DNA of 64,000 bases from NCBI GenBank assembly GCA_022984795.1, contig JALIHJ010000010.1, forward strand, positions 265,453 to 329,452, in the 5' to 3' direction. The stretch comes from Fabrea salina. Taxonomy: Eukaryota; Ciliophora; Heterotrichea; Heterotrichida; Fabreidae. The notes beneath the pieces are model-generated. The model made no database searches, had not been told where the DNA came from, and worked only from the letters and a program-made list of their open reading frames with translations. Made by a program: the position numbers and the translations under genes. Positions 11,241-41,644 of this stretch are shown one piece after another (the stretch's first letter is position 1; each line of letters begins with the position of its first letter).

Positions 11241-11843
11241 ATGTCCCAATTTAAAGAACCCAAAAATGCAGGCTCCAAACTGATGTAAGGACTACTAAGG
11301 ATCTGGCAGAACTACGCAAGTCTCGAAAGGAAACTCAAAACCATGAAAAGCACCATTGAGACCCACAGAGAGTTCCCCCAGGTTTTCAAAGGTCCAGTTG
11401 GCAAAAAGCAACACCTCAAAAAGATGCGAGACAAAGAGATCAAAGAAGAAAACAGAATCCTCCTTGAAAAAATGCAAGGCATCTTCAAAGCCAAACCTAA
11501 AATAATCCAAACTACCAAACTTAAGTCCCTCAACATCAATGCCAGGAAACAAGAAGCTACCCGCATTAACCAACAAAACACTAACCTTTATAAGCACCTT
11601 TCCAACATCAAATCTGAGTACAGCAGAGAAGAACTAGCTAAGTGGAACAAAACCAACCAAAAGTACAAACAAAACCTTAAGTCACGCTCAAGCATAAGTC
11701 CTTTAAGACCCATTGTAACTCCTGGACTTGCCAAAGCTTACCCCGAACTCAAGAAGCTCCCTTGCAACACAAGCAGGTCACGCGCTAGTGTTTCCACAAC
11801 TGACCGTGGCAAACCTGAAAACACCTCTAATTCGAATTCCTAA
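11241..11843 (+). CDS. CFAP97/Hemingway-like protein (one 15-nt intron)
   Basis: The reading from ATG 11241 meets an in-frame TAA inside a 15-nt intron (11285-11299). Removing it joins ..GSKL to MIWQNYASLERKL and gives 195 aa. The protein is short, basic and helical, and its central part (RINQQNTNLYKHLSNIKSEY) is like the CFAP97 (KIAA1430/hmw) motif with conserved N..L...L..I spacing. The family is needed for normal cilia/flagella in animals. The divergent pseudokinase start is 35 bp away and the stop is 1 bp from that of PSMB2. Family assignment is moderate, gene structure strong. Confidence 0.65.
11285..11299 (+). other. 15-nt intron, GTAAGGACTACTAAG
   Basis: Phase 2 intron. Contains the TAA that would otherwise truncate the CFAP97-like reading. 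GTAA at 1-4, A at 10, AG at 14-15. Confidence 0.9.
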
Positions 11844-11844
11844 C

Positions 11845-12423
11845 TTAACTTAATTCAATCTCATGAACTCCATTTGAATCCACACACTTGAAAATAAAGT
11901 GCGGCTGGGCCACCAAGAACCGAGTTCTAAGTGCGTGGGCACACTTAGCCATGACTTCTTTGGCCTCTTCAAAAGACATTTCGGGGTTCCACCAGTGGTC
12001 CAACAAGCCGTACAAAAAGTTGCCTCCGTAACCATGAGCTGCCTTGTCTACTTTGGAAGCCACTCCCAAGTAGTCTAAGTAGTACAGACTTGCTCCTTCT
12101 TGGTCAAAGCCTCCCAGCAACAAGTCAGTGAAGCTTGGACTCTTCCTCAGGTCTTCTGCTATAAGGGTCCTAATGAAGTTTGCCGAAGCACTAGTAGAGA
12201 GCGTGACTCCGTTGGAGAAGTAGTAAAGGTGGATGTTTTTTTGGACCAAGTCCGAAAAGTCATCTCGGTTGGATGCTTCCCCAGCAGCTGCAAGGATCTT
12301 GTTGTTGTCAATAGGGGTGATTTTGTCTTCGTCGTCTTTGAGTCTGACTATTGAGAACTGGGCACTGCGGTCTGCCCCCAGTATGACGAAGTCTTTGCCT
12401 TTTAGTCCGAAGATGGTATCCAT
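11845..12423 (-). CDS. 20S proteasome subunit beta type 2 (beta-4)
   Basis: 192 aa from the ATG at 12423; an upstream in-frame ATG (12447) adds eight unlikely residues, since the family begins directly with M..IxGxxG as here (MDTIFGLKGKDFVILGADRS). The body follows PSMB2: LLLGGFDQEGASLYYLDYLG and AAHGYGGNFLYGLLD. Beta-4 has no active N-terminal Thr and no propeptide, consistent with this sequence. It is structural in the inner ring of the 20S core. The stop is 1 bp from that of the converging CFAP97-like gene. Confidence 0.9.
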   Translation of the reverse strand: MDTIFGLKGKDFVILGADRSAQFSIVRLKDDEDKITPIDNNKILAAAGEASNRDDFSDLVQKNIHLYYFSNGVTLSTSASANFIRTLIAEDLRKSPSFTDLLLGGFDQEGASLYYLDYLGVASKVDKAAHGYGGNFLYGLLDHWWNPEMSFEEAKEVMAKCAHALRTRFLVAQPHFIFKCVDSNGVHEIELS

Positions 12424-12497
12424 ATTTGTGCTTATATGACCCAACAAAGCATATTTTAGTTAACTCCATATTAAGCGATAATTTAAAAATTCGTTAG

Positions 12498-13226
12498 ATG
12501 TCTGAATTTACAGCAACAGAAGTTCCCCAAGAACCCGAGCACAAAATGTACTCTGAAGTCAAACAACAAAGAAAACAAACCGAAGAAGACGCTAGACTAC
12601 TTGCTAACAGACTGGCTCTCCTCCGGCAAGAAGAAGCCAAAGCCCAGAAAAAGATCGAAGAAACCAGACGCAAAGCACTCGAAATCATGCAAACCCGAGC
12701 GCGTAACTTAGAAGCCCAACAAAAAAAAGAACAACTTTCAAAAGAAAAACAACTTCAAAAACAACAACGGTCTAGTGAACTCCGCAACCAAAAACAACAA
12801 CAACAACTCTCCAAAGAACAAAACCTCCAAAGTCACTTCCACAAAGTCCACTCAGAAGCCAAAGCTCTCAAAGAGTTCAAAAAAGAAAACAAACAAGCCA
12901 TCCACACCCAAAAACAACAGGAAAGAATGCAAAAACTATCCAAAAAGGAACAACTCCTTTCTTGCAAACGCGAAGCTGAACTCAGACGCAAAAAACTAGA
13001 AGAAGAACGCAAAGCCAAAGCTAAAGAAGAACTACAAAAACGCATTGAACAGGAAGAAGCTATACGCCTCCAAAAGGAAGAAGACGTCAAACGCATGGAA
13101 CAAGAAGAATTCGAACTCATACAGCGCCTCCAAAACACCCAGTCCATGCAACAGTCTGCTTACGAAGAACTCGAAAAAGCCCTTTCTGGAGAAGTTGAGT
13201 TCAGTATACTGAGTGAAACATGTTAA
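12498..13226 (+). CDS. Charged coiled-coil protein, unknown
   Basis: 242 aa, nearly all Glu/Lys/Gln/Arg with heptad hydrophobics from residue 15 to 225: a long single-helix or coiled-coil rod. No domain recognised. Length and composition resemble many ciliate cytoskeletal or basal-body rods, but composition alone is not evidence of a role. It is divergent from PSMB2 with a 74-bp gap (long for this window) and converges on the GTPase gene with a 2-bp gap. Confidence 0.75.
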   Translation: MSEFTATEVPQEPEHKMYSEVKQQRKQTEEDARLLANRLALLRQEEAKAQKKIEETRRKALEIMQTRARNLEAQQKKEQLSKEKQLQKQQRSSELRNQKQQQQLSKEQNLQSHFHKVHSEAKALKEFKKENKQAIHTQKQQERMQKLSKKEQLLSCKREAELRRKKLEEERKAKAKEELQKRIEQEEAIRLQKEEDVKRMEQEEFELIQRLQNTQSMQQSAYEELEKALSGEVEFSILSETC

Positions 13227-13228
13227 TA

Positions 13229-14563
13229 TTACTTAGCAGGATAAACTTTAGAAATAGCCCCTAGTCCTTTCGTCCGGCCTTCTCTGAACAAAATAGTCAT
13301 CCCTGGATGCACTAACTCAGGGTTGTACATAAACTTGAACCTTATAAGTCCTTTGTCGCCTGTTCGGAGGAGCTCCTTAGTCATGTCTAGCACCTTAGCT
13401 GCCTGTCTCACCACTCCACAGTGAATTATAGGTTGGTAGTTCTTTCTGATAGTAGTTGCGTGGTGCAGAATCACTACTTCTGCGTCAAACTCCCAGGCTG
13501 TCTGAGGCATTAAGTTCCTGTCCACCATCACCATGCCTTTGCGGATGCTGTTCCGTTTGATTTGGTCTTTTTTGTTAGAAGCCCTTACGTTGAAGCACAC
13601 TGACTGGCCTGCCACTGCAACCTCCACAGGAGTCCTTTTCATGTGTATGCTCCTCACAGTTACTTGTCTGTAGTTGCCGTTTTTCTCAGGACCCAGCATC
13701 AAGTTGGAGTTAACCTGCACTGTGCCTGACTTAAGAATTCCTGAAATCACAACACCTACACCTGTCACCATGTAAACTCCGTCTATCAAAAACTCCACAG
13801 GGTCTTCAGGACCTCCGAAAACCCCTGAAGTGGTTGCCCGTGGTTCGAGTCCGTGCAGAAACAACCTTAGTTTGTCTAGGCCTTCTCCAGTAACGTTAGA
13901 CACAGAAAAGATAGGGCAGACCTTAGTTTCCATAAGGTGTTGGATGTCCTGGAACTCTGTGTCTTGGTCTACTATCAAAGGCATTCGGCTCCCTGCTGAG
14001 GGACTCCGAAGGATCTTTTGCAGAGTTTCGAGGTTCTGGCTGTATACGTTTTCAGGAGCGATGTCGACTTTAGTAATCACGAAAAACATTGGAACTTTAA
14101 GAGCCAAAGCAAGCCCTATGTGCTCTTTAGTCATTCGAGTAAGACCCATGTTAGCTCCAATGACTATCATGGCGTAGTCAGGCATCAGTCCTACCAGTCC
14201 GAAAATAGTAGTTTTTAAGTACCTTTCGTGACCGCACAGGTCGAGGAAGGTAAGCACTCGGTTGGAGTTCTCAACAATGTGTGACCAAGTTTTGTTTTTG
14301 CTTTCTGTGATTCTTTCTGGAGCAACTTGCGAGCCGTCAGGACGGAAGCCCATGATTTCGTGGCCGATGCTGGAAGTTCTTCCGTTGGCTTGTTCGTGAG
14401 AAAAGTTAAATACCAAACTGCGTGCAGAACCTCTTCCGTCATCCATGACGCACCTAGTAAGCACTCCCACTAACGTGGATTTGCCTGAGTCGACGTTTCC
14501 GATAACAGCTACTCGGAGGTCAGGTTCCCCTCCAGAAACTTTGCTTTCTTCAGCTGGCTCCAT
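13229..14563 (-). CDS. GTP-binding protein GTPBP1/GTPBP2 family
   Basis: 444 aa. Translational-GTPase G motifs are visible: GNVDSGKST (G1), a DLCGH G3 and ITKVD (G4), followed by EF-Tu-like domains 2 and 3. The family-specific HEQANGRTSSIGHEIMGF switch segment marks GTPBP1/2, which in animals act in ribosome rescue and mRNA turnover. Shorter than human GTPBP1 (669 aa) because the long N-terminal extension is missing; the G domain starts within 20 residues of the ATG. The TBC gene lies 13 bp upstream on the same strand. Confidence 0.9.
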   Translation of the reverse strand: MEPAEESKVSGGEPDLRVAVIGNVDSGKSTLVGVLTRCVMDDGRGSARSLVFNFSHEQANGRTSSIGHEIMGFRPDGSQVAPERITESKNKTWSHIVENSNRVLTFLDLCGHERYLKTTIFGLVGLMPDYAMIVIGANMGLTRMTKEHIGLALALKVPMFFVITKVDIAPENVYSQNLETLQKILRSPSAGSRMPLIVDQDTEFQDIQHLMETKVCPIFSVSNVTGEGLDKLRLFLHGLEPRATTSGVFGGPEDPVEFLIDGVYMVTGVGVVISGILKSGTVQVNSNLMLGPEKNGNYRQVTVRSIHMKRTPVEVAVAGQSVCFNVRASNKKDQIKRNSIRKGMVMVDRNLMPQTAWEFDAEVVILHHATTIRKNYQPIIHCGVVRQAAKVLDMTKELLRTGDKGLIRFKFMYNPELVHPGMTILFREGRTKGLGAISKVYPAK

Positions 14564-14576
14564 TTATTAAGCTTAC

Positions 14577-15461
14577 TTAGATCATTTCGTATTCCTCTTC
14601 TATTTGGCAGAAGTCAGACCCGAACTCAAGCAAACTCTCAGCTTTATACTGCTCAAAGCACTCCACAACTAGTCTTTTGCTAAGGAAGTTGTGCAGTTCT
14701 CCAGATTTCAAGCGCAGTATCTTAGTTTTCTTTAAAACCAGCATTTTCAAGATCAAGTTTAAAAGCACTTCTTCGCCCTCCATCAAAAACAAGTCCATGA
14801 TCTTAACGCTGACCTCCAGGGGCGCTATATACACACACAAAGTCAAGAAGTAAGCTGAAAAACAGGTGAAGTCCAGTTCCTGACTCTGGAAATGCATGTA
14901 CAAGTCAAGGTGGTGGCTTTCTACTTGACGGGCAAGTGAGTCGAGGATCCTGACCAACTTAGGAGTGCCAGCTAGAAACAACTCTCTCCACTGCAAGTCG
15001 TTCATCACGTACCAAAACACCTTGAACGCAGCCAGCTCTGACAGGTGCATGAGGAGCAGGCCAGCAATGAAAGCCATGCCTTGGCAGTACCCCACCTTGG
15101 GGTCAGCTTTGGCGTAAGCACGCAAGAGGTTCTGAAGGGCTGTTTGGCCAATCCCCCCTTTTTGTGTGAAAAGACTGTGGAAGGGGAAGGTCCTACTCAG
15201 GTCCTTGTTGATTTCGCGATCTGCTCCCGTGAAGTTGCTCAGTTGTAGGTACTGTCTTTCTGAAACGTTTGCTCCAAACATTTGCCACAAACCTGGACGC
15301 ATGTGTTCAGGAATGCCCCTCACTAAGCTATGACGCAAGCCAGGAGGGGATACGCGACTCTGCCCTGGTCTCTGCAGTAGTGCCCACTCTTCTCTGTGTA
15401 CTTTTGGAACGGGCGGATCAATTATCTCGAATTCGTCGCTTAGGCTGTACTTGCGTGACAT
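14577..15461 (-). CDS. TBC-domain Rab GTPase-activating protein
   Basis: 294 aa, a TBC domain with little else. It begins VRGIPEHMRPGLWQMF and carries both catalytic fingers: Arg90 in NKDLSRTFP and Gln127 in GYCQGM. These stimulate GTP hydrolysis by Rab proteins. The substrate Rab cannot be told. The ends (EFEIIDPPVP; IEEEYEMI) are short acidic tails. Start is 89 bp from the divergent secreted-protein gene. Confidence 0.92.
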   Translation of the reverse strand: MSRKYSLSDEFEIIDPPVPKVHREEWALLQRPGQSRVSPPGLRHSLVRGIPEHMRPGLWQMFGANVSERQYLQLSNFTGADREINKDLSRTFPFHSLFTQKGGIGQTALQNLLRAYAKADPKVGYCQGMAFIAGLLLMHLSELAAFKVFWYVMNDLQWRELFLAGTPKLVRILDSLARQVESHHLDLYMHFQSQELDFTCFSAYFLTLCVYIAPLEVSVKIMDLFLMEGEEVLLNLILKMLVLKKTKILRLKSGELHNFLSKRLVVECFEQYKAESLLEFGSDFCQIEEEYEMI

Positions 15462-15550
15462 AGCGTAACTTTTAAAATATGTTTATTGCATGTTGGATTC
15501 ATAAATTAACCTGTAGGTGCAGTTTCTAGCTGTAGAAAAAATAAATAAAT

Positions 15551-16036
15551 ATGAAGTTTCTGGTAGTAGCTGTTCTAACTGTTGGAGTGTTGGGCCTCCA
15601 GAGTCCCTTGAGTGCCTATAAAGAGTTCCTAGAAGGTATGCATCAAGGCTTCACAGGGTCAATGCCCCCCCAGCAGTGCCTTTCGCAAGAAGCCCAAGAA
15701 AAGATCAGCCAGCACTTTTCTAAGTTCGTCTCAGTAGTTTCTGACAACCCTACAATCCACGACTTCTTCAGTGCCTGGTTGCTGTTCACGCCTGACGCTA
15801 TGAAGCTTGTCAGTGACTGCGACTTAGGAATTTACTTGGAGACTTTCAAAGAAGCCATGGAAAGCTACGGGATGCATGGGCTAATTTCAAGGACCTACAT
15901 GCACTATGGCGCTTTGCAACTGAGACTCAAGAACATAGCTGACTTTTGGAATCAGGCTAAGTTCAAGAACGCAGGCGACGAAGTAGGAAGACTGCTTAAA
16001 ATAGTCCTGAGTCCTGAAAACTTAGAAAGTAATTAA
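15551..16036 (+). CDS. Secreted helical protein, unknown
   Basis: 161 aa. Residues 1-16 (MKFLVVAVLTVGVLGL) form a clear signal peptide with no other membrane segment, so the product should enter the secretory route. The mature part is predicted helical, with only two cysteines (Cys43 in PQQCLS, Cys90 in SDCDLG) that could form one disulfide. No family recognised. First of six + strand genes; its stop is 3 nt before the next ATG. Confidence 0.8.
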   Translation: MKFLVVAVLTVGVLGLQSPLSAYKEFLEGMHQGFTGSMPPQQCLSQEAQEKISQHFSKFVSVVSDNPTIHDFFSAWLLFTPDAMKLVSDCDLGIYLETFKEAMESYGMHGLISRTYMHYGALQLRLKNIADFWNQAKFKNAGDEVGRLLKIVLSPENLESN

Positions 16037-16039
16037 TAA

Positions 16040-17023: not shown

Positions 17024-17038
17024 TTAAAGGGGGTTATA

Positions 17039-18751
17039 ATGGAACAAGTCAAACAACCCAAAAGGAGTTTTTACCAAACAAGTAACTACTAGTAAGTGAT
17101 TACCTCTTCTAAAGAAGCTGCTCAAAAACTAGAACACTTGCTAAAAACAGATAAGTTAAACCCTAACCAAGTAGAAGAACACATCACCAAAGCTATCAAA
17201 AAGGCTGCACCACAAATTGACTTAGTTAGCGTTGTTTTGGGAATCTACAAAGAACTCCTACAGTTAAACTTACCTGAGATTTTGTCCAAAAAACTCACTT
17301 CAGCTGTTTGCAAAGCAATCGAGTCTAAACTTATTGACAAGCAGTCCATGGCCCAAGCAGTAGAGTCCCAAATTCACCAAATAGACCCTGGAACTCTTCC
17401 AGAACTCGTCGGGGCCCTTAGTCTAAACCACCTTAAAGAAAAGTAACTCCCAAACAGTTTGTATGAACTAGCTTGTAATTACTGGAACAACAAAAAACAC
17501 GAAAAAGCTGTAGTTTTGTGCCAGAAACTCAAGTTGTGCAACAGACTCCAAAGTGACTTCTGCGCTTTGGAGTTTTTAGTTAAATCCAACAAAACCGAAC
17601 TAGTTAAGAAACTCACTAAAAAGAACCCTGACTTAGCTAAAACCGCCGTAAAACTAATGACTTCTGAAAGACATGCTAAGTTTGCTGCCCAGATACTTAA
17701 AGAGTCCCAACTTTCCCTTGAAGAATACCCTTCACTTTTAAGCATTTTGAAAAGAAAAACAGTCAGGTACCACTTGAAAGCCTCAGACATCGGCTTCTTC
17801 AGACTAGCAGAAATAGTTAACGACGACCCTGAGTGCGTTGCCTTTGTAATAGACCAGCTGCAGTTTGAATGTAAACTTTAGTTAGACAAAAAGAAAAACA
17901 ACTACGCAGGAGGAGTGGCTGCAGACATATTTAGGAACTACCCCTACTCAGCACGTTTCTTAAAAAGACCTGTTAAAAAGGCAGTTGAAAACATTCCTCC
18001 AAGGAACTTTTCTTTAAATGACAGTTTCGGTCCCCGCAACCCAGAGGTCGAAGCTATTTTGCCTTTTGACTTTTCAGACCTTAAGTTCGTAGGCAGTTTG
18101 GACTCAGTCAAAGAACTAGACCTCAGCGGGGACGCAGTAGGACTGGACTGCGAGTGGCGGCCTTCTTTGACTGCCTTCGACACTACTAAGGTGTCCATCA
18201 TACAAATAGCTTTTGAAAACAGAATCTACATTGTAGACCTTTTGAACCTCAACAACTGCCAACTGCTAGACGAAAAGCTCAGCCGAATGTTTTCTGACCC
18301 AAGCATTGTGAAGTTGGGACTTAGTTTTTCTGGAGACCAAAAAAAGGCACAAGAAAGTTACCCCCACATGAAGTGCTTCAAGAACCCAATTAACAACTAC
18401 TGCGACTTAGTGGACTTGTTTCAAAAGCTAAACAACCAAAAGAACCCTGGCCTGGCTGGTCTGTGCGAAATGATCCTAGGACTGCCTTTGTCCAAAGTAG
18501 AACAAATGTCCAACTGGGAAAACAGACCTTTGAGACAGTCTCAACTGCACTATGCTGCAATGGACGCTTACGTGCAAATTCCTATTTACCAAGTTTTGCT
18601 AGCTCAAGAACCTGGTGAAGCACCTCAGATGGCCCCTAAAAGCTGTTTAAACTGCAAAAGCAAAATGCACCAGGAAGAGTCTTGCTACAGAGGACCTAAG
18701 TGCAGACTCTGTGAAGAGTACGGACACGAGTCTCCTCACTGTCCTTACTAA
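17039..18751 (+). CDS. Mut-7/EXD3-like 3'-5' exonuclease with zinc knuckle (three 15-nt introns)
   Basis: Exons 17039-17081, 17097-17442, 17458-17870 and 17886-18751 give 555 aa in one frame. The N-terminal half (about 1-290) is helical, TPR/HEAT-like. The C-terminal half is a DEDD exonuclease: ALGLDCEWRP-type exo I (here GLDCEWRPSL), an exo II region around NNYCDLVDLF, and exo III HYAAMDAYVQIPIY (DEDDy type). It ends with a CxxC..CxxC zinc cluster (CLNCKSK, CRLCEEYG). Architecture matches mut-7/EXD3/Nibbler exonucleases, which trim small RNA 3' ends in animals; a small-RNA role here is inference. Confidence 0.88.
17082..17096 (+). other. 15-nt intron, GTAACTACTAGTAAG
   Basis: Phase 1, splits an ATG codon (A|TG). 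Contains in-frame stop TAG. GTAA start, A at position 10, AG end. Confidence 0.9.
17443..17457 (+). other. 15-nt intron, GTAACTCCCAAACAG
   Basis: Phase 2 intron. The unspliced reading hits TAA at 17444-17446; splicing restores ..LKENLYELACNYW. GTAA start, A at position 10, AG end. Confidence 0.9.
17871..17885 (+). other. 15-nt intron, GTAAACTTTAGTTAG
   Basis: Phase 1 intron. Splicing joins QLQFEY to KKKNNYAGG in frame, removing TAG. GTAA start, A at position 10, AG end. Confidence 0.9.
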
Positions 18752-18758
18752 TTAAAAA

Positions 18759-19511: not shown

Positions 19512-19517
19512 TATAAA

Positions 19518-20033: not shown

Positions 20034-20050
20034 CTAACTTAGTTAATAAT

Positions 20051-21340
20051 ATGTCTGACCTTGGCTTCTTAGACACTTTGGTGACTAAATACCGAGACAT
20101 TTTTGAAAAAGCCGTAGCTAACAACTACGTTGTGTGCATTCCGACAGAACCCTCTTTAGGACTGCAACCCATCACCAAAAGACTTGTAACAGACCACATC
20201 TTAAAGCCTTCTCCTTATATCGAAAACCTTTTCCAGACTTTAAGTGGAAAAAACTTGCTGATTAAGTCAGACGAGATTGAAGCCCACACTGGCTACACTC
20301 ACAAGTTCACACTTAAAATCATAAGGGAAGAGAACGCCCACGACGAAAAAGGCCGAGTTTACAAACAAATTACAGTAAACGCCCCCTTGGACGACAACCC
20401 CAAGAAGTTTGCTTACATTCCCCCAGACCCTATTTTTAAGTTCTACACTTCAGACCAGTACATCGGCTACCTAACCAACGCAGTTGAAGGGGCTGAGGCT
20501 GCCAGTATGTTTGCCAAGGCCTTTACTCAGCACTTCAACACTTCTTACATCATTTTCAAGGAGTTCGCAAAAGACTGCTACGCCAAAGTCAAAACGGGAC
20601 TTAAGGACCTCAAAGCTTTGGTGTTAACTATTGAACAGTTTCAGAGTGTGCACACCAGCCCTAAGTGGATGGAGTACTTGTGCGAAATGGTAGAAAGCAA
20701 CATACTCAAAAGAATCTACCCTAAGTTGTTTGGCCACATGAAAGAGTTCCACGAAGACAAAGAAACAGAACTCTGGAACGACTGCAGCAAACTCATAGAA
20801 CAACTCCCCCCCGAGAACTTTGGCTTCGACCCTGAACTCAAAGACTGCCAGTTCAAAGAGTCCTTTAGTTTGGTGATGCAACTAAATGACCTAGAAACTC
20901 CTTGGGAAAAACTCCAAGTCATCACTAGAGTCGCTTCTACAATCGACAAAGAATGCAAACACCACCTTTCTTCCATTAAGTCCCAAAAAGCTGACTCTTG
21001 GGAAACCTCTGCAGACCAGTACTTCCCCCTACTGACTTACTTCATTTGCTTGCACAAACCTAAAAACTTACTAGCCAACCTAGCTTACATACAGGAATTC
21101 ACCATTTCAACCAACTCTTCTGGAGAAAAGACCTACCACTTAATTAACTTCCAAGCAGCAGTGCAAAGCATCAAAAAGATGGTGGAGGATGTAAGTAAAC
21201 CCCAAGTAGTTAAAATCCCCTCTCCACCTCCTCCTGAGTACACCAGAATGAAAACCTACGGAAAAGCCAGAACTGATTTGGAAGCACAAAACATCGAAGA
21301 AGACTACGGAGTATTTGGACCTCCTAGAAGAAGAATTTAA
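20051..21340 (+). CDS. VPS9-domain Rab5-type guanine nucleotide exchange factor
   Basis: 429 aa from ATG 20051; an upstream in-frame ATG at 20024 lies inside the previous gene's last codons. The N-terminal half is helical. A VPS9 domain lies at about 220-385, ending with the signature region DQYFPLLTYFICL..PKNLLANLAYIQEF, with the conserved D and P of D.LPxL and the YxLxNxxAAxxxI end. VPS9 domains activate Rab5-type GTPases on early endosomes. A Pro-rich tail (PSPPPPEYTRM) follows. It contains a possible frame-preserving 15-nt intron (21195-21209) that would remove five residues after the VPS9 domain. Confidence 0.82.
   Translation: MSDLGFLDTLVTKYRDIFEKAVANNYVVCIPTEPSLGLQPITKRLVTDHILKPSPYIENLFQTLSGKNLLIKSDEIEAHTGYTHKFTLKIIREENAHDEKGRVYKQITVNAPLDDNPKKFAYIPPDPIFKFYTSDQYIGYLTNAVEGAEAASMFAKAFTQHFNTSYIIFKEFAKDCYAKVKTGLKDLKALVLTIEQFQSVHTSPKWMEYLCEMVESNILKRIYPKLFGHMKEFHEDKETELWNDCSKLIEQLPPENFGFDPELKDCQFKESFSLVMQLNDLETPWEKLQVITRVASTIDKECKHHLSSIKSQKADSWETSADQYFPLLTYFICLHKPKNLLANLAYIQEFTISTNSSGEKTYHLINFQAAVQSIKKMVEDVSKPQVVKIPSPPPPEYTRMKTYGKARTDLEAQNIEEDYGVFGPPRRRI
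21195..21209 (+). other. Candidate frame-preserving 15-nt intron, GTAAACCCCAAGTAG
   Basis: Fits every constant position of the proven introns (GTAA, A10, AG15). Splicing would change ..EDVSKPQVVKIP.. to ..EDVIKIP.. without changing frame. It lies in a non-conserved linker, so homology cannot decide. Confidence 0.45.
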
Positions 21341-21343
21341 TAT

Positions 21344-22870
21344 TTAAACCTTTTTCATAGAAGCAGAACTGGGCCTTGAATAGTCCTCAGGTCGGGGATC
21401 TAGTATCCTAGAAAATTCTTCAAAAGTAATGTAGTTTTCGTACTTAAACCCTTCTTCCCGAATCATAGACTTAACTTCTTCTTCGGAAACTCGGAGTCCC
21501 ATGATTTCTAAGGCATGCTTTATGTTGTCTTTCGTGATGAACCCATTGTCGTCTTCGTCAAAGAACTTAAAAGTCATCCACCTAAACTCTTTGTCAATCA
21601 AAAACTTGCGGTCAATCGTGGCTGAAAGGAACTCAGAGTACTTGATTTTACCTATCCCTTCAATGTCTATTCCAGCTACTAACTCGTTAATGCTTTCTTG
21701 GGTAGCTTCAAGTCCTAGCCGAGTAAGTGCTTCCTTCAACTCACTTGTAGTAATGTACCCTGTGTGGTCTGTGTCTAGAACTCTGAACACACTGTTTAGT
21801 TGTGTCAGTTCTTCAGTGTTTAAGTACCTCACTAACACGTTCATCATGTCTTTCCTCAGTTTAGAAGTTTTGTTAAACCTTTTGAGCCTCTTCAAAATGG
21901 GCTTAGTGTTTAAGTTGGAGGGAGAGTGCCTTAAAGAAAACCAGGAGTGCTCTATAGCTTCAGAAGCCGTGATGCGCTTTTTGGGGTCTACACAGAGCAT
22001 TTTCCTAAGTAAGTCTTTAGCAGTGTCGCTGATGCTTTCCCACTTTTTGCCTTCAAGTGAGTAGTTGCCTTCTAAAATATTTACAAACAAGTCTTTGGTG
22101 GTGCTTCCAGAAAAAGGGGGTTTTCCTACTAGAATTAAGTACATCACTGCTCCTAAACTCCAAATGTCGCATTCTTGGTCGTAGTTCTTGTTAAGGACTT
22201 CAGGAGCTACATAGTAAGGAGTGCCTACTATGCTGTGGAGCATGTCACCTTGTCCAAACTTAGCTGCAAGTCCGAAGTCAATAATCTTGATTTCGCCACC
22301 TGGGCCTTCGTGGGAAAACATAAGGTTTTCAGGTTTAAGGTCTCTGTGGGAAATGTTTATACTGTGCAAGTGGTTGATTGCGTGGAGCAGCTTATAAATT
22401 AAGTCAGAGGCCTCTGCTTCGCTGCAGGGTCCTTTTCTGAGCAGGTTTTCAAGGAGTTCGCCCCCCGAGCACATTTCCATTACTATGTGGATGAACTCTT
22501 CGTCTTCGTAAACTTCGTAGAGTCTAATGATGTTGGGATGGTCTACTTTGCAAAGTGCTTCAAGTTCCCTTTTGAGACTGTTTACTTGGGACTCTACTTT
22601 TTGCTTAGGGATGATTTTGATTGCGTATTTGTGTTTGGTTTGGGAGTCTTTTTTGTAAGCTAGTCTTACGTTGCCGAAGTACCCCTCTCCAATGATCTTT
22701 TTGATTTTGTAGTGCTTAAGAATGTCTAGTTAGATCTTACTGTCCTGGCTGATGTAAGGAAACTCCCCAAAAGAAGTAACCGGGTCGGTTGGGTTGAAAA
22801 AAAGACTTTTAGAAGAGACTCCGTTGGGCTTTACACTTGGTTTTGGTTTTTTCGAAATGCAGTTTCCCAT
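21344..22870 (-). CDS. Calcium-dependent protein kinase, CDPK (one 15-nt intron)
   Basis: Starts MGNCISKKPKPS (myristoylation/palmitoylation signal) at 22870; after removing intron 22726-22740 it encodes 503 aa. Kinase motifs: GEGYFGNV glycine loop, YAIKII lysine, HRDLKPEN, DFGLA, GTPYYVAPE. A junction helix and calmodulin-like domain follow: EF loops DTDHTGYITTSE and DEDDNGFITKDN look calcium-competent, DIEGIGKIKYSE is partial (Asp pattern weakened), and the last (REEGFKYENYITFEE) is degenerate. CDPKs couple Ca2+ to phosphorylation in plants and alveolates. The stop is 3 bp from that of the VPS9 gene. Confidence 0.95.
22726..22740 (-). other. 15-nt intron, GTAAGATCTAACTAG (minus strand)
   Basis: Phase 1. 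Splicing joins PYISQDN to ILKHYKIKKIIGEG, linking the acylated N-terminus to the kinase domain and removing stops. GTAA, A10, AG15. Confidence 0.9.
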
Positions 22871-22881
22871 GTTAATTAGTA

Positions 22882-23094: not shown

Positions 23095-23103
23095 CCCCTT
23101 AAA

Positions 23104-23856: not shown

Positions 23857-23882
23857 TAAGATAAAATGGTAGACTTTATAAT

Positions 23883-24410: not shown

Positions 24411-24415
24411 ATAAC

Positions 24416-26914: not shown

Positions 26915-26925
26915 TGTTTATTATT

Positions 26926-27852
26926 ATGGAACCCAAATTAGCAAGTGGCTTGACTTTGGCAAAGGACCAAGAAATCTTTTACTTAGGTAACACAAACTCA
27001 GGAGGCGCTTCTACCAACGGCCAACACTCTAACAGAGTGTACAGGTACCAAGAGTCTTGGACTCAGTTGCAAATTACCAACTCTGAAGTCTTTAAACCTA
27101 GGTCAGGCTTAGTGGGGTTTTGCTACAATAACTGCATTTATGTCTTTGGAGGCCAAGAGGAAAAGGCCTCTGGAAGCACTGTGTACTCTGACTGGCTTAA
27201 ACTCAACTTAGCAACTCTGGAGTGGGAGGTTTTGCTTGAGTCTGAGTTCCCTAGACACTCTGCTTCATGTGTGCTTAGGGGCTCTAAGGCTTATGTATTT
27301 GGAGGAGCTAACTCTCAAGGCGTGTTCAGTACTCTACTTGAACTAGATTTAGGTAATGTCTAGTGAGACTCTTTGGAGTTTTGTGAAAAACCCACACTAG
27401 GAACTCCTCCTGGAGTGTTTATGAGCGGAGCTGTTCTTTACGGGGACTGTTTGTACTTGCTGGGGGGCCTAAAGGAGGACTCCACTGCTTCGAACGAACT
27501 CTATTCACTTGACTTCGAAACTTGGGAGTGGGCTTTAGTGAACACTTTTACTTGTGAAGGAAAGAGCATGCCTATGGCAGGACACTCTGTTACTCTGCAC
27601 GGAGAAGAGTTACTGGTGTTTGGGGGTTCTGACTTAGCTTCTGTGTTGTACTCCAACCTGTTTGTGTACCAGATCCCAGAAAACAAGTGGAACAAAGTTA
27701 ACTGTGAGTTGTTGCCTAGGTTCTGTGGGGGTATGTGTGTAGCTGGGAGTAAGATTTGGCTAGTAGGAGGCTGCAACTTAGAAAGGAGAGAAAACTTAGG
27801 AGAGCAAGAACTAGACTTAAGCACACTTAGTTCAAAGGAACCTTTAAGTTAA
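26926..27852 (+). CDS. Kelch-repeat protein (two 15-nt introns)
   Basis: Exons 26926-26986, 27002-27352 and 27368-27852 encode 298 aa. Five to six kelch blades are visible, each with the double-Gly strand: IYVFGG, AYVFGG, LYLLGG, LLVFGG, IWLVGG, and (only after splicing of 26987-27001) FYLGG. Kelch propellers are protein-binding scaffolds; no BTB or other domain is fused here. Gap to the divergent DDX54 gene is 11 bp. The intron at 27353 removes an in-frame TAG. Confidence 0.85.
26987..27001 (+). other. Frame-preserving 15-nt intron, GTAACACAAACTCAG
   Basis: Has GTAA, A10 and AG15 but no in-frame stop, so an ORF finder reads through it as NTNSG-like residues. Splicing turns FYLGNTNSGGAST into FYLGGAST, restoring the double-Gly kelch motif before NRVYRYQESW. 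Phase 1. Confidence 0.75.
27353..27367 (+). other. 15-nt intron, GTAATGTCTAGTGAG
   Basis: Phase 1 intron. Removes TAG; splicing gives LELDLDSLEFCEK. The TAG TGA run here is intronic, not a recoded stop. GTAA, A10, AG15. Confidence 0.9.
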
Positions 27853-27867
27853 GATTCTCCACTTATA

Positions 27868-29160: not shown

Positions 29161-29190
29161 CCTGTATAGTCGAAGTTTCTTTACTTATAA

Positions 29191-29610: not shown

Positions 29611-29653
29611 GTAAGTTTCTGGTTAATGTTTAAATAAGAAATGAAGCATAATA

Positions 29654-30391: not shown

Positions 30392-30418
30392 TGTAGACTA
30401 ACCTTAAACTTAAAGTAT

Positions 30419-31600: not shown

Positions 31601-31625
31601 CTTAATAGTAAGTTTCTTATCAAAA

Positions 31626-32525
31626 ATGTCAATTACTTCGTCTTCAAACGGAGGAGTTAACCCTGTACTTCCTGTAAGGGACTTGTACAACATGACTGCA
31701 GGTGCCAAGTCAGAGTGGGGAGTTGAAGGCTACTACGCTCCCAAACCCTGTCTCTACACGACCCACCAGTTCAAGTTCCCAAACGAAAAACGCAAAGACT
31801 TCATTTCAGAAGCCAAAAAGCGAGAAAACGAACCCGACCCTTCCAAGTACGCTTTGGAGCCCAAGAAGTTCAACGAGATGTACTGGCGCAAACCCAACGG
31901 GAAATTCCTCCAAGGAAAACGAACTACTTACACCGACGACGCCATCAAAAGAAGCAAAACCACACCTGCCCCCAGTGACTACTTTAAAACCGATAAAAAA
32001 AGCCAAAAACCAATAGTGTCTATCGGCGGAAAAATTTCAAAAACTGAAGGAATCAGCTTTATGACTACCACTGAGTACAACTCCGAACAACTGCCTGAAC
32101 CTTCTAAGTACAAACCCAACTTCAAACACGTAGAACGCAGAACTCCCAACTGGGGAATGGGCAAACCAATTCCTGCCAAGAAAAAGTCCAAAGACAACAT
32201 TGGCCCTGGAAGCTACGCAGATGCTTACTTCAAACACGAAAAAAAAGTAGTCAAGAGCTCCCCTTCCTTTTCAGTGCCCAAGTCAAGACAACCCAACTCA
32301 GTAGTCCAAGCAACAACAGTCACTAAAAACAACCCAGGAGTAGGCGCCTACAAAGAACTAGACCGAGCTTTCACCTCAAACACTGTTTGGAAAAGACAGA
32401 GAGCAGCTGCCATCACGCCTTACAAATTCAGAAGGTCGACTGACGAGTACACCAAAAGCAAAGACTGGGTGCCTGGTCCAGGCAGCTACAACGTAGGTCC
32501 TCCCGCTATTCAAAAGTCCAAATAA
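31626..32525 (+). CDS. STPGR (SHIPPO)-repeat ciliary protein
   Basis: 299 aa, Lys/Pro/Tyr-rich. Repeats of the sperm-tail PG-rich type are spread along the chain: PDPSKYA, APSDYF, PEPSKYKP, IGPGSYADA, NPGVGAYKE and PGPGSYNVG. STPGR proteins such as ODF3/CIMAP lie on axonemal microtubules in many eukaryotes. There is no hydrophobic core or other domain. It lies 25 bp from neighbours on either side. Confidence 0.85.
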   Translation: MSITSSSNGGVNPVLPVRDLYNMTAGAKSEWGVEGYYAPKPCLYTTHQFKFPNEKRKDFISEAKKRENEPDPSKYALEPKKFNEMYWRKPNGKFLQGKRTTYTDDAIKRSKTTPAPSDYFKTDKKSQKPIVSIGGKISKTEGISFMTTTEYNSEQLPEPSKYKPNFKHVERRTPNWGMGKPIPAKKKSKDNIGPGSYADAYFKHEKKVVKSSPSFSVPKSRQPNSVVQATTVTKNNPGVGAYKELDRAFTSNTVWKRQRAAAITPYKFRRSTDEYTKSKDWVPGPGSYNVGPPAIQKSK

Positions 32526-32550
32526 GGCCTTCATAATTTAAACTTAAGTT

Positions 32551-33654
32551 ATGGAATCCAAAAGACCCCAAGAGTGGAGTGTTTCGGAAGTAGGAGAGTG
32601 GCTGGAATCCCTTGACCTTACTGTGTACAAACCACGGTTCCAAGAACTCCGCATTGACGGAATGCTGTTGTTTGAAATGACTGAAGAAGATCTTATTAAT
32701 GACATAGGAGTGCCAGTACGCCTTCACAGGTTCAAAATTAACGAAAACATCAAAAAACTCAAAGAACAGACACTACAGAACCCTCCAGAGAGCGACTCTG
32801 AAGAAATGAGTGAAGAAGCCCCGCAGGAAGTCAAGTGGGAAGTCTTAGTGCTCAAAGCAATGGAAGGCCAACTTGCAAATAATACTTTTTTAATTGGAAC
32901 ATCAGGTGCTACTATTGGTCGGAACTCCAGTTTCAATGAAATAGTTATTGGAGAAAGCTTTGTAAGTAGGAAGCACTGCGAAGTCAGGTACAACGAATCT
33001 ACTAATCAGTTCCTGCTCAACGACCTAGGAAGCACTACTGGGACTTTCATGATGGTTAGCTGTCCTTTGCAATTGCAACTCGGAACAATGTTCCAACTAG
33101 GACTCAGCGAGTTCAAAGTAACCAACGTCAAGTACAACCCCCACGGAAGAGCTGTGACCCTTGAACTCGAAATTTACGAAGGACCTGCTCGGCAAAACCA
33201 ACTAAGTGTAGGACCCCAAGGACTAACTATCGGTAGAGACCCCGAAAACTCCTACAGCATCAGAGAAGACTCCCAAATGAGTGGGTTCCACGCCAAAATT
33301 GAGTACTCTGAAGGCAACTTTTACCTTTCAGACGTAGGGTCCACTAACAAAACTTGGGTGAGACTCAGTGCAGAGGGAGAAAGAAGTCAACCCTACCCTG
33401 TTTTAGTAGGCGACGTAGTGAAAATAGGCTCTACAGTGCTTGCAGTTGAGTTGCCAGACCCTTCCCAAGTTCCTTTTAGGGACTCTAACGGTCCAGTTTC
33501 TGAAGACACTGCTTGCAAGATTTGCTTTACTCGTGAGTGCAACGTTGCTTACTACCCTTGTGGACACATGCTGTGCGAGTTCTGTGCTAGGAAGTGCGGG
33601 AACTGCCCTATTTGCAGAAAGCCTGTGCAAGACCTAGTCAGGCTTTTTAGGTAA
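32551..33654 (+). CDS. SAM-FHA-FHA-RING protein, putative E3 ligase
   Basis: 367 aa. A SAM domain is at 7-70 (WSVSEVGEWLESLDL...IGVPVRLHRF). Two FHA domains follow: one at about 95-190 with TIGRNSS, VSRKHC and DLGSTTGTF; one at about 205-300 with TIGRDPEN, SGFHAKI and DVGSTNKTWV. A C-terminal RING (CKICFTRECNVAYYPCGH...CPICRK) ends the chain. FHA domains read phosphothreonine and RING recruits E2, so it may ubiquitinate phosphorylated partners, somewhat like CHFR/RNF8 but with a SAM and a second FHA. Confidence 0.88.
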   Translation: MESKRPQEWSVSEVGEWLESLDLTVYKPRFQELRIDGMLLFEMTEEDLINDIGVPVRLHRFKINENIKKLKEQTLQNPPESDSEEMSEEAPQEVKWEVLVLKAMEGQLANNTFLIGTSGATIGRNSSFNEIVIGESFVSRKHCEVRYNESTNQFLLNDLGSTTGTFMMVSCPLQLQLGTMFQLGLSEFKVTNVKYNPHGRAVTLELEIYEGPARQNQLSVGPQGLTIGRDPENSYSIREDSQMSGFHAKIEYSEGNFYLSDVGSTNKTWVRLSAEGERSQPYPVLVGDVVKIGSTVLAVELPDPSQVPFRDSNGPVSEDTACKICFTRECNVAYYPCGHMLCEFCARKCGNCPICRKPVQDLVRLFR

Positions 33655-33658
33655 TATG

Positions 33659-34174
33659 TTACTCTTTAGTTAGTTTGCGTTTTTTGTGGGGAGTTTTGGT
33701 TGTGTTGGGGAGTTCGCCAATGATTCTGATCATTCCTTCTTCAGTTTCTACTTCTGAAACCTGGAATTCTAGTTCTTGGTTTTTGGTGAGTAACTTGTTT
33801 TTGTAGTAGAGGTCGTTGCCTTTGAGTTTCAAAGCCCTTTTGCCCTTGATAGGAATTGTGGCGTTGTAGATGCCAACCATCAACCCAATGGTGTCTTCAC
33901 TCCAAGTCTTAAGTGTGCCTGTGAGTTTTTGGCCTGGTTTAGGACTGAAGTACTTAGCAACTAACTTAACTTTAACTAGTATCACAGAAGTTTCCTCAAT
34001 GATTTTGGCTTTCTTTTCTAGGACTTTGAGGTCAGTGTAACTCTGCATGACTCCTTGGAAGTCTTCGTTCCACTTGTTTACATAACTCTGGAGGTGCTCT
34101 TCCACAGCTTTGCGCACGTTTTTGAGTTTGGAAAAAGGCACTGGAACTATTGTGTTTATTTCGTGTTCTTCCAT
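33659..34174 (-). CDS. RNA polymerase I subunit RPA43 (POLR1F-like)
   Basis: 171 aa. The RPB7-like N-terminal domain is seen as VPVPFSKLKNVRKAVEEHL, YVNKWNEDFQGVMQSYTDLK, and the OB-like part as VAKYFSPKPGQKLTGTLKTW with IGLMVGIYNATIPI, the family order (FxPxxGxxLxGxV...NxxI). RPA43 pairs with RPA14 as the Pol I stalk. Shorter than human (338 aa) as the long basic tail is only a short KKRKLTKE. Stop is 4 bp from that of the RING gene. Confidence 0.8.
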   Translation of the reverse strand: MEEHEINTIVPVPFSKLKNVRKAVEEHLQSYVNKWNEDFQGVMQSYTDLKVLEKKAKIIEETSVILVKVKLVAKYFSPKPGQKLTGTLKTWSEDTIGLMVGIYNATIPIKGKRALKLKGNDLYYKNKLLTKNQELEFQVSEVETEEGMIRIIGELPNTTKTPHKKRKLTKE

Positions 34175-34192
34175 TAATACAAACTACTTTTA

Positions 34193-34855
34193 TTAAGTGC
34201 CTAACTTTTCTTTGTGGGTTTTGGTGGTGACGTGTCTTTTGGCAGAGGACTTTTGCATCGTTTTGTTGCAAAGAGTGCATTTGTAAATCCAAGAGTCCTC
34301 TTCGCCTTCGTCCCTCACAAGCTCAAAAAGAGTCCCATCTTCCATAGTTAAGTGGTGGGGGTCAGACACCTCCACCGCTACGGAGGGCTTAAACTTGTCT
34401 GAAAGAGTGTCTGACTCAATGCTTAAACTACGGATGCTTTCAGGCGAAGAAGGAGGAGAAGTCCGCTTTGAAGTCCCGTTGCGGAACTGGCACTCCCGAG
34501 CTATATGGCCTTGGCCTCCGCATTCGTAGCACTCAGGCACTTCTTTGCAGTCCCTGCTAATGTGTCCAGGCTTCCCACAGTTATAACAGCGGTCCTTTTG
34601 GCGTTCTCGCGAAGTGCCTCCTTCGCGTTGTGTGAACTTGCCTGAGCGTTTTGACCACTCGATGTTCAGACACAGACCTCCCATGTTTTTGCCGTGCAGG
34701 TCTAGCTTAGCTTCGTCTGCGTCGCGTTCGTCCTGGTACTCTATGAAGGCATAGCCTCCTCGGTGGTTTATTTTGCAAGGTCCAAATCTGTGGAATTCTT
34801 CTTCTAAGTCCTTTAAAGACACGTTGCGAGAAATGTTCCCTACAAACAAGCTCAT
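34193..34855 (-). CDS. RRM + two CCHC knuckles + C2H2 finger RNA-binding protein
   Basis: 220 aa. An RRM (about 2-70, with RNP2 LFVGNI and RNP1-like GYAFIEYQ) is followed by two zinc knuckles, [14 protein letters not shown] and [14 protein letters not shown]-type, a Ser-rich linker, and a C-terminal U1/matrin-like finger ([24 protein letters not shown]). The front half is like SR splicing factors of the RSZ type (RRM plus knuckle), though the RS domain is replaced by the C2H2 finger. Likely a nuclear RNA-processing factor. Confidence 0.88.
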
Positions 34856-34891
34856 TTTACTAATTACTTACTTAGTTATTATTGCTTAACT

Positions 34892-34993
34892 ATGGAAACC
34901 GAAGAAGTTAGAGTTCAGTACGACATTCTAATAGCTTTAATTGTGTTGCTTGTTTCTATAAAGGAAATCATTCTGCTTTTCACTCGACTTTAG
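34892..34993 (+). CDS. 33-aa single-pass membrane peptide, unknown
   Basis: ATG at 34892 opens 33 codons to a TAG: a short acidic start (METEEVRVQYD), a ~20-residue hydrophobic helix (ILIALIVLLVSIKEIILLF) and TRL. It fills an otherwise 151-bp gap in a window where gaps are usually under 40 bp, has AT-rich DNA before the ATG, and ends 13 bp before the ESS2 start. Too short to identify. A chance ORF cannot be ruled out. Confidence 0.45.
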   Translation: METEEVRVQYDILIALIVLLVSIKEIILLFTRL

Positions 34994-35006
34994 TGACATT
35001 ATAATT

Positions 35007-35687
35007 ATGTCGAGTTTGCCTAAAAAAAGAAAACAGCGAGTCTGGGAAGAAGACGAGTACCTGCACAAACTAAGCATGATCATCGAACGTGACTATTTTC
35101 CTGAAAAACAAAAACTGTTTGCTTTAAGGGCCCTTCTGGAAGCAGAGGACTCCAATGACTCCCAAGCAATTTCTATGTCCAAAGTCCGTTTAGAGCAGTC
35201 TAGAAACTTCTCCAACGAGTCCCTTAATGAGTTCCTTTCCAGCAACACTAGTCAAGACAACACTAGTTTCTTCAAAATCCACACCCAGGACTTACTGGAT
35301 TTCAAAAACAAACACTGGTGGGCTTTTGCTTCTGAAGCACTGCAGACTCACCAGTTACTTGCAATAGAACCCCCTAAAGACCTAGGAGCAAAGCCATCTA
35401 GCTTGATGTTTAGTTCTGAGTTAGCTGTTGCAAACCCTGCTTTTAAAACGCCCTCTAGACAAGTAGTAGCAGCCAACACGCGCATAGCAGACTTCACTCT
35501 GACAAAGAACTCAAACTTCAAGCTCCAAGGTCTTTCAGAAAAAGAGAAACTTGCCTTCTCTCTTTCAGAAAAACTCAAGCAGTCCAAAAGGGCCCCCAAG
35601 TCTTCTTCACGCAAGAACTCTATTTTCGGGACCTCTTCTAAAAAAAGCAAGTCTTCCTACTTGTTTCCTGTTATTAACGAGCCTTAG
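35007..35687 (+). CDS. ESS2/DGCR14-like splicing factor
   Basis: 226 aa. The family opening is clear: KKRKQRVWEEDEYLHKLSMI followed by IERDYFPEKQKL and ALLEAED, then SLNEFLSSNTSQDNTSFFKI, the ESS2 signature (eFLxxxTSEDNxSF). ESS2 is a nuclear protein found with the late (C complex) spliceosome. It is shorter than human DGCR14 (476 aa), with a Ser/Lys-rich tail. Stop is TAG. Together with PRP38 and cactin, part of this window's splicing set. Confidence 0.85.
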   Translation: MSSLPKKRKQRVWEEDEYLHKLSMIIERDYFPEKQKLFALRALLEAEDSNDSQAISMSKVRLEQSRNFSNESLNEFLSSNTSQDNTSFFKIHTQDLLDFKNKHWWAFASEALQTHQLLAIEPPKDLGAKPSSLMFSSELAVANPAFKTPSRQVVAANTRIADFTLTKNSNFKLQGLSEKEKLAFSLSEKLKQSKRAPKSSSRKNSIFGTSSKKSKSSYLFPVINEP

Positions 35688-35699
35688 TAATTCATATAA

Positions 35700-36483
35700 A
35701 TGGCAAGAGCACTTGGAAGCATGCCTGACTTGAAAACTGGAAACCTAATTCAGAGGTTTTACAAAAAGGCCGGAGTCAAACAAGCTTCTGATGGGTTTGC
35801 TGTTGTTTTGGACGGCAGAGGCATCAAAACTCCTGAAAGAACGTCTGTGGTACTCCCCACTGAGATACTTGCACTCGGAGTTGCTTCTGAGTGGCAAGTT
35901 CAAGACAAGTTCCTTAAACCACACACCATGCCTTTGGTAAACCCTACTTAGATGCAACTAACTTCCACTGTTTTGGACATCCATGTCACCCAAATGCGCT
36001 CTAAACTAAGTGAGCGAATACTAGAGTTCCTGCAAAACGACAGCATATGGGAAGTAACACTAAAGTAGCTATAGAGAAGACTCAGAAGAACAGGCCCAGC
36101 ACCAAGATCAACTCCTCAACCCCCTTCTGGAGCACATCAACAAAAAGTACCAAATCGAACTTCCTATGTGCAGTGGTTTGGAAACTCCTGAGATTCCCTC
36201 TTCTTCGCTTGAAAGTTTGAAGAGCCACTGCAACTCTTTGGACGACTACGGAATTGTAGCTTTGGAAGCAGCTTCCACAATCTCAAGGTCAGTAGGAATC
36301 GCTTTGGCACTCTTAGACGGGCACTTGTCCATCGGGGACGCTCTGAAGTGTGCACGTGTGGAAGAAGACTTACAAATTGAGGAGTTCGGGATGGTTGAAG
36401 GAAGCCACGACATTGACGAAGTCAACTCCAAAATGATCCTTGCTGCTTCTAAAAACTTAGTTTCACTTAAAAGTTTTAGTTAA
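35700..36483 (+). CDS. ATP12 (ATPAF2), F1-ATPase assembly factor; two introns, frame break at second
   Basis: Exons 35700-35936, 35952-36053 and 36069-36483. Exon 1 carries the ATP12 pattern [17 protein letters not shown] and [12 protein letters not shown]; splicing intron 1 gives [15 protein letters not shown], as in other ATP12 proteins. Exon 3 gives YREDSEEQ... and later [20 protein letters not shown] and [17 protein letters not shown]. Joining exons 2 and 3 by the expected 15-nt intron leaves one base too many (total 754 nt), so the reading breaks between DSIW and YRED. ATP12 chaperones the F1 alpha subunit in mitochondria. Stop codon interlocks with that of the methionine synthase. Confidence 0.85.
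35937..35951 (+). other. 15-nt intron, GTAAACCCTACTTAG
   Basis: Phase 0. Removes TAG and joins MPL to MQLTSTVLD, matching ATP12 homologues. GTAA, A10, AG15. Confidence 0.92.
36054..36068 (+). other. 15-nt intron, GTAACACTAAAGTAG, at a frame-inconsistent junction
   Basis: Has GTAA, A10 and AG15 and removes a TAG. After splicing, ATATGGGAA joins CTATAGAGAA, which is one base out of the ATP12 frame. With GG instead of GGG it would read [11 protein letters not shown]. Confidence 0.7.
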
Positions 36484-41631: not shown

Positions 41632-41644
41632 ACTATGATAAAAT

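Follow-up and report, generated by a model that had tools for sequence, protein, structure and literature searches.

Putative 15-nt introns with a shared adenine at position 10 in five genes at a chromosome end of Fabrea salina

Results

The window, i.e., the whole 64,000-nt stretch of Fabrea salina DNA that was analysed, ends in a telomere (63260..64000) in which TGTTAGGG is repeated about 92 times (read on the opposite strand as CCCTAACA), the same 8-mer as that reported for Blepharisma. Ciliary and other eukaryotic genes are present, e.g., CFAP300, CFAP97, and CEP76, and the telomere together with this gene content suggests that the window represents a heterotrich macronuclear chromosome end. 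No rRNA was found in the window, which had no Rfam matches. A search for relatives by comparing the telomere repeat with viral contigs gave four matches, all of them short repeats within other sequence in the excerpts examined, and no relative. The GC content of the window is 43–44%, whereas that of Stentor coeruleus is near 30%. The gene models are our own, and their codon model was trained on 33 open reading frames from the same window. Ten short gene calls are excluded from every gene count; eight overlap a longer gene on the opposite strand and two are short calls in gaps (34915-34971 and 61365-61448). The 48 gene models examined for stops end in UAA (43) or UAG (5) and never in UGA, a statement limited to the models kept, as four of the ten omitted calls end in TGA. 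The coding regions of the models can be read without any internal UGA.

Seven introns were upheld, at 11285, 17082, 17443, 17871, 22726 (minus strand), 27353, and 35937, distributed over five of the 49 modelled genes. Each is exactly 15 nt long and its removal restores the reading frame. The earlier note had listed eight breaks, each explained by removing exactly 15 nt; this held for seven of them and failed for 36054, where the excision leaves the frame off by one. Its statement that all intron phases are present was borne out (phase 0 once, phase 1 four times, and phase 2 twice). A codon-usage gene finder that required GT and AG at the intron ends was run with one intron length at a time over 53 lengths (8 to 60). 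The 15-nt run called five introns (17082, 17443, 17871, 22726, and 27353) for a gain of 96.8 log units, compared with 51.6 for the next-best single length, which overlaps the same breaks. Among 13 other dinucleotide end pairs at 15 nt, nine gained nothing, and the top gain of 33.5 again fell on the same breaks. The picture was less clear-cut with mixed lengths. When any length from 10 to 40 was allowed, nine introns were called, four of which were 15 nt, and 17082 was absorbed into a 30-nt call. With lengths of 14–17 and a penalty of -6, six of the seven calls were reported introns, 11285 now among them. At -3 there were 17 calls that included all seven introns, 35937 being gained, and at -1.5 the same seven were found among 61 calls. 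The introns at 11285 and 35937 were recovered only with weaker penalties, which also let in noise.

The intron GTAAGGACTACTAAG (11285..11299, plus strand, phase 2) lies in a Hemingway/CFAP97-family gene (11241-11843). It was called at penalty -6 and was not called at -9 with 15 nt alone allowed, and its junction is outside the Pfam match (PF13879, 1.2e-11; residues 25-115 of the protein). The idea of a start codon split by the intron at 11285 was abandoned in view of an in-frame ATG upstream, at 11241. The 3'-5' exonuclease gene (17039-18751) contains three introns on the plus strand, namely GTAACTACTAGTAAG (17082..17096, phase 1), called in the 15-nt and 14–17 runs, and GTAACTCCCAAACAG (17443..17457, phase 2) and GTAAACTTTAGTTAG (17871..17885, phase 1), both also called in the free-length run; none of the three has homologue coverage. 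The calcium-dependent protein kinase gene (21344-22870) carries GTAAGATCTAACTAG (22726..22740, minus strand, phase 1), called in the free-length, 15-nt, and 14–17 runs. Its junction is just ahead of the kinase domain (Pfam, 1e-77), the score of which is 261.5 with the 15-mer retained and 261.6 with it removed. Elsewhere, the possibility of a 16-nt intron at 49253 was rejected, as excision of this 16-mer would only exchange the C-terminal residues of a transporter-like protein and extend into the convergent gene.

At two of the seven junctions, the alignment to solved homologues is continuous and ungapped; the other five have no homologue coverage and are backed by the reading frame and by codon usage. 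The first of these two belongs to the Kelch-repeat gene (26926-27852), in which GTAATGTCTAGTGAG (27353..27367, plus strand, phase 1) was called in the free-length, 15-nt, and 14–17 runs. The junction aligns ungapped to LZTR1 and KLHDC3, and removal of the 15-mer raises eight of the nine shared Pfam Kelch scores, although one weak secondary Kelch alignment (i-Evalue 0.3) has a five-residue gap at the junction, which counts against the intron. The second is GTAAACCCTACTTAG (35937..35951, plus strand, phase 0) in the ATP12 gene (35700-36483), called at a penalty of -3 or weaker only. Its junction is ungapped in the alignment to 2p4x and 2zd2, and the Pfam ATP12 score is 98.0 bits with the 15-mer removed versus 86.9 with it retained. 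In general, the excised versions outscored the retained ones in Pfam, and most scores fell in the three control excisions made within these genes.

The ATP12 gene has a second break at the 15-mer GTAACACTAAAGTAG (36054..36068, plus strand). The two halves around it form one protein (E 1.1e-21 over residues 18-224), yet the excess at the break is 1 modulo 3, and no GT-AG excision that begins at 36054 and ends at an AG up to 35 nt away restores the correct frame. Excisions of 10, 16, and 19 nt keep the frame and score 105.3, 108.1, and 111.4 bits, respectively. It is very likely that this site holds either a real 15-nt intron with a nearby one-base insertion error in the assembly, or a 16-nt intron whose ends are atypical, or a true frameshift. 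A 16-nt intron would agree with the 16-nt minority among published heterotrich introns, but the best-fitting 16-mer starts with AG rather than GT, and the 10-nt GTAGCTATAG at 36065 likewise restores the ATP12 frame.

The template described in the earlier note, a GTAA start, A at position 10, and a terminal AG, was found in all eight 15-mers, with T or C at position 9 in seven of them. In the seven upheld introns, A10 and GTAA are both invariant, although the finder demanded only GT and AG. Pyrimidines occupy positions 8 and 9 in all seven (C8 in six and T9 in six). The A+T content of the introns is 62.9%. The pattern GTAANNNYYANNNAG, of which the YY part was chosen post hoc, occurs nine times in bases 1-63250, and seven of these are the introns. 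A selection overlooked in the earlier note has to be considered here: breaks in open reading frames reveal only introns with an in-frame stop, and a phase-1 stop puts A at position 10, so the constancy of A10 is partly an effect of detection. Four of the seven introns were detected via a stop codon with A10 as its middle base. Conditional on an in-frame stop and the base composition of the window, the probability of A10 in seven of seven is 4.7e-4, and that of GTAA in seven of seven is 1.1e-7. The fixed A10 thus remains unlikely by chance after the correction for bias.

Discussion

It is highly likely that the window is a heterotrich macronuclear chromosome end that carries seven 15-nt U2-type (GT-AG) spliceosomal introns in five of its 49 modelled genes, which would be spliced in the manner proposed for Stentor. 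The pattern is real, yet it is already known from heterotrichs, and its tight template, which the earlier note presented as newly visible, was in print for Stentor (PMC9505925). In S. coeruleus, 8173 of 8806 introns (92.81%) are 15 nt, the remainder being 16, and 8005 have the branch A at position 10 (Nuadthaisong et al., 2022; PMC9505925). These are the shortest introns known for a full spliceosome (PMC9505925). The proposal of uniform 15-nt spliceosomal introns with A10 thus agrees at seven sites with what was published for Stentor, and does not extend to 36054. Stentor and the window share the 15-nt length, GU...AG, A at position 10, the standard genetic code, and few introns per gene (PMC9505925). 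On the other hand, the Stentor branch region is described as lacking a strong consensus (PMC9505925), whereas pyrimidines at 8 and 9 precede A10 in all seven introns here. The A+U content is 75.63% in Stentor (PMC9505925) compared with 62.9% A+T in the seven introns, a difference that we counted against our explanation. Blepharisma stoltei resembles the window in its introns of mostly 15 and 16 bp, gene-dense genome, and CCCTAACA telomere; it differs in that UGA encodes tryptophan, for which the gene models of the window have no need, and in a genome of 66% A+T (PMC9942806). For heterotrichs, about 95% of introns were reported to be 15 bp and the remainder 16 (PMC11441545). A conserved A near the intron 3' end was described in 2024 for S. 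coeruleus and as undetected in other species outside the list given there, in a passage that does not name Blepharisma (PMC10946202).

By analogy with Stentor, the seven 15-mers would be removed by the spliceosome. Most likely, U1 and U6 would read GTAA at the intron 5' end, A10 with its pyrimidines at 8 and 9 would serve as the branch nucleotide, and the second step would use the AG five bases past A10. The resulting lariat, of the kind proposed for Stentor, would have a loop of about 10 nt and a tail of 5 nt. The mechanistic question is how 15 nt accommodate a branch point together with the two splice sites.

Stop codons in Condylostoma are read through or reassigned. A similar situation here, with no splicing and with the 15-mers as coding inserts whose in-frame stops undergo readthrough or reassignment, is highly improbable. 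Every insert is a multiple of three and would keep the frame if retained, and stop usage is unusual in that UGA never serves as a stop in the 48 models. Nevertheless, genes clearly end at UAA and UAG, the retained versions match homologues worse at 27353 and 35937, and GTAA, A10, and AG are not predicted by readthrough. We give almost no credence to the 15-mers being internal eliminated sequences that remained in somatic DNA: ciliates do excise short stretches of DNA as the macronucleus develops, but the ends here are GT and AG, as opposed to the terminal inverted repeats with TA of the eliminated sequences reported for Paramecium, the shortest size peak of which is 26-28 bp, and the DNA bears a telomere, as expected for a processed chromosome end.

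The window probably adds a species other than Stentor to those with 15-nt introns, and the pyrimidine-pyrimidine-A10 pattern is an addition to the published template. The same template in a less A+T-rich heterotrich means that length and A10 persist despite a shift in base composition.

We also consider, with somewhat less than even confidence, that the template is a stop-codon trap in each of the three reading frames. An intron of 15 nt, a multiple of three, keeps the frame when it is not spliced out and would enter the protein unnoticed. If so, GTAA would supply TAA in phase 2, T9-A10-R11 would supply TAA or TAG in phase 1, and T13-A14-G15 would supply TAG in phase 0, the presumed branch A being the middle base of the phase-1 stop. 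Apart from the detection bias, support comes from a count of stopless introns. If stops arose by chance (0.30), about 11.6 hidden stopless introns would be expected beside the five stop-bearing ones of phases 0 and 1. The in-frame stopless template matches number three, with no excess over codon shuffles (4.07). The deficit has a P of about 0.005, or 0.06 should all three matches be true introns, which hints that in-frame stops are maintained in these multiple-of-three introns. On the other hand, the looser pattern GT.......A...AG occurs 74 times in coding sequence versus 56.8 in shuffles (sd 7.6). This excess is a point against the stop trap and could hide stopless introns without GTAA. In Loxodes magnus, of the sister class to heterotrichs, introns are likewise very short, but the mode is 17 bp, those below 16 bp are negligible, and multiples of three are depleted (PMC11441545). 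If the stop trap is true, heterotrichs use the intron sequence itself against a problem that Loxodes and others handle by keeping intron lengths off multiples of three, and intron phase sets positions 9, 11, and 13, a phase-by-phase prediction for any heterotrich genome with RNA-seq.

The three stopless matches are all on the plus strand. The match GTAAACCCCAAGTAG (21195..21209), in a VPS9-domain gene, fits GTAANNNYYANNNAG, and its removal leaves the Pfam score unchanged (70.4 vs 70.5). A second, GTAACTCATAAACAG (59427..59441), is in a gene without a Pfam match. The third, GTAACACAAACTCAG (26987..27001) in the Kelch gene, is an uncertain candidate with AA at positions 8-9. Its removal would restore a Gly-Gly Kelch motif and raises nine of ten Pfam scores, while the top-scoring family drops from 203.1 to 158.1; the change in scores is weak evidence for an intron there. 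Finally, genes cover 97% of the window, and this layout may be more unusual than the tiny introns.

Probable 15-nt introns and the break at 36054

The earlier note proposed eight introns of exactly 15 nt, and its reading of the letters was confirmed: the 15-mers at 11285, 17082, 17443, 17871, 22726, 27353, 35937 and 36054 all start with GTAA, have A at position 10 (A10, the presumed branch nucleotide) and end with AG, and position 9 is T or C in seven of them. The 15-mer at 22726, on the minus strand, is GTAAGATCTAACTAG. A simple gene finder, trained on codon frequencies in 33 long ORFs from the same window, was run with GT-AG introns of a single length per run (8 to 60 nt). Length 15 gained 96.8 log units with five introns (17082, 17443 and 17871 in the 3'-5' exonuclease gene, 22726 in the CDPK gene, and 27353 in the Kelch gene). 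The runner-up lengths of 54, 48 and 36 nt gained 51.6, 47.9 and 47.4, respectively, all by reusing the breaks of 15-nt introns. With non-GT-AG ends at 15 nt, the gain was zero for 9 of 13 dinucleotide pairs, and the three pairs gaining at least 19 overlap breaks already taken by GT-AG introns. Other settings gave less clean results. When lengths 10–40 were all allowed together, the finder called nine introns, of which four had 15 nt, and 17082 was swallowed by a 30-nt call. With lengths 14–17, a penalty of –6 gave seven calls, six of which were reported sites including 11285 (Hemingway/CFAP97 gene), while penalties of –3 and –1.5 gave 17 and 61 calls, each set including the same seven introns, namely the proposed ones without 36054. 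The support for 11285 and 35937 therefore comes partly from other evidence.

Homology bears on two of the seven junctions. At 35937, the joined ATP12 protein is ungapped over the junction (residues 79 and 80) against 2p4x and 2zd2, and its Pfam ATP12 score increases from 86.9 bits with the 15-mer retained to 98.0 with it removed. At 27353, the Kelch protein is ungapped at the junction against LZTR1 and in the stronger KLHDC3 match, a five-residue gap appearing there in a single secondary alignment to KLHDC3, which is weak (i-Evalue 0.3), and removal raises the Pfam Kelch scores in eight of nine shared families. The junctions at 11285, 17082, 17443, 17871 and 22726 fall outside matched domains, and the kinase score for 22726 is equal in both states. 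When other template-like 15-mers were excised as controls, scores mostly fell: in seven of eight listed families at 27739, to 81.1 for ATP12 at 35850, from 261.6 to 240.5 for the kinase domain at 21977, and in one of two TBC families at 15238.

The claim of a 15-nt intron failed at 36054, where excising 15 nt leaves the frame one base off. Both flanks belong to one ATP12 gene, as removal of 16 nt gives a 2p4x match of 80.5 bits over residues 18–224; the part upstream of 36054 by itself reaches 48.6 bits. Frame-keeping excisions of 10, 16 and 19 nt score 105.3, 108.1 and 111.4 bits, and, as read off the sequence, the frame is wrong for all seven AG ends that lie up to 35 nt from its GT. The break may be a true 15-nt intron adjoining a one-base assembly error, or it may be a 16-nt intron with unusual ends.

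Three spliceosome-associated family genes were observed in the window: Es2 (35007–35687), also named DGCR14, cactin (53004–54377) and PRP38 (58581–59306). A table for Stentor in PMC9505925 gives DGCR14 as not found. The 15-nt introns are of an already known type, because papers report them for S. coeruleus (of the 8806 introns annotated, 8173 measure 15 nt and 633 measure 16 nt, with the presumed branch adenosine at position 10 in 8005; PMC9505925), for Blepharisma (mostly 15 and 16 bp; PMC9942806) and for heterotrichs generally (about 95% 15 bp, the remainder 16, in the Loxodes paper; PMC11441545).

Detection bias and in-frame stops

Every one of the seven introns has an in-frame stop because they were found through broken reading frames. 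In all four phase 1 introns the revealing stop lies at positions 9–11, and therefore A at position 10 is forced; the stop is TAA at 2–4 in phase 2 and TAG at 13–15 in phase 0. A10 is independent of the revealing stop in only three of the seven. Among 15-mers simulated under this bias, A10 in 7/7 has P = 4.7e-4 and GTAA in 7/7 has P = 1.1e-7. Six of the seven carry C at position 8 (binomial P 7.5e-4, uncorrected for the number of positions tried), and six carry T at position 9.

The template GTAANNNYYANNNAG, whose YY was picked after seeing the seven introns, occurs nine times in bases 1–63250. Seven occurrences are the introns, and the others are an in-frame match at 21195 in a VPS9-domain gene and an antisense match at 11017. 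In the spliced coding set (49 pieces, 59,817 bases), GTAA.....A...AG without a stop was found three times, and the antisense count is also three; codon-shuffled sequence has 4.07 (sd 1.92). Excising one of these stopless matches, at 26987, would bring back a Gly-Gly Kelch motif and raises nine of ten Pfam scores, but the best one drops from 203.1 to 158.1. The looser GT.......A...AG is in excess, with 74 occurrences in spliced sense coding sequence versus 56.8 (sd 7.6) shuffled, and it occurs 83 times antisense.

Because 15 is divisible by three, an intron left unspliced can be given away only by a stop in frame. Short introns bearing stops, and mRNA surveillance, are known from Paramecium. 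A bolder reading is that introns of such length are kept supplied with in-frame stops. If stops came at the chance rate (about 0.30 in phase 0 and 1 introns), one would expect, alongside the five stop-bearing introns of these phases, about 11.6 hidden introns without a stop, which is unlikely because only three stopless matches stand against a background of 4.07 (P about 0.005, or 0.06 if every one of the three is a real intron rather than background). This estimate comes from a small sample. A limited literature search found no statement of this idea for heterotrichs, which is not proof of absence.

Host, genetic code and gene spacing

At its end the window carries about 92 copies of TGTTAGGG, the complement of the Blepharisma telomere repeat CCCTAACA given in PMC9942806. 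The gene models include CFAP97, CFAP300, CEP76-like, CDPK and further eukaryotic families. Judging by the telomere, the type of intron and the genes present, the host is probably a heterotrich. In Blepharisma, UGA encodes Trp, according to the same source (PMC9942806). Such a code is unlikely in this genome because UGG is used 237 times in 19,716 codons and no UGA is needed inside genes. The 48 gene models ending inside the window stop with TAA (43), TAG (5) and TGA (0); TGA ends 4 of 10 short gene calls excluded from the model set. In the 33 long ORFs, C far exceeds T at third positions for Asp (GAC 691, GAT 107), Asn (AAC 674, AAT 107), His (CAC 332, CAT 58) and Tyr (TAC 485, TAT 70), but not for Phe (TTC 420, TTT 415).

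Genes are packed extremely tightly: the 49 models cover 97.1% of 1–62152. The median gap between neighbours is 16.5 bp (n = 48; 40 gaps are at most 35 bp), with introns counted as gene and gaps resting on our own start choices. The 13 divergent pairs have a median of 32 bp between start codons and minima of 11 and 13 bp (26915–26925 and 41632–41644), leaving hardly any promoter space outside coding sequence. In the 12 convergent pairs the genes are separated by a median of 1.5 bp. Three of these pairs overlap by 4 bp, with TTAA common to both genes and the stop codons interlocked (36480–36483, 49327–49330 and 60374–60377). The 3' ends of mRNAs must extend into the neighbour or be nearly absent.
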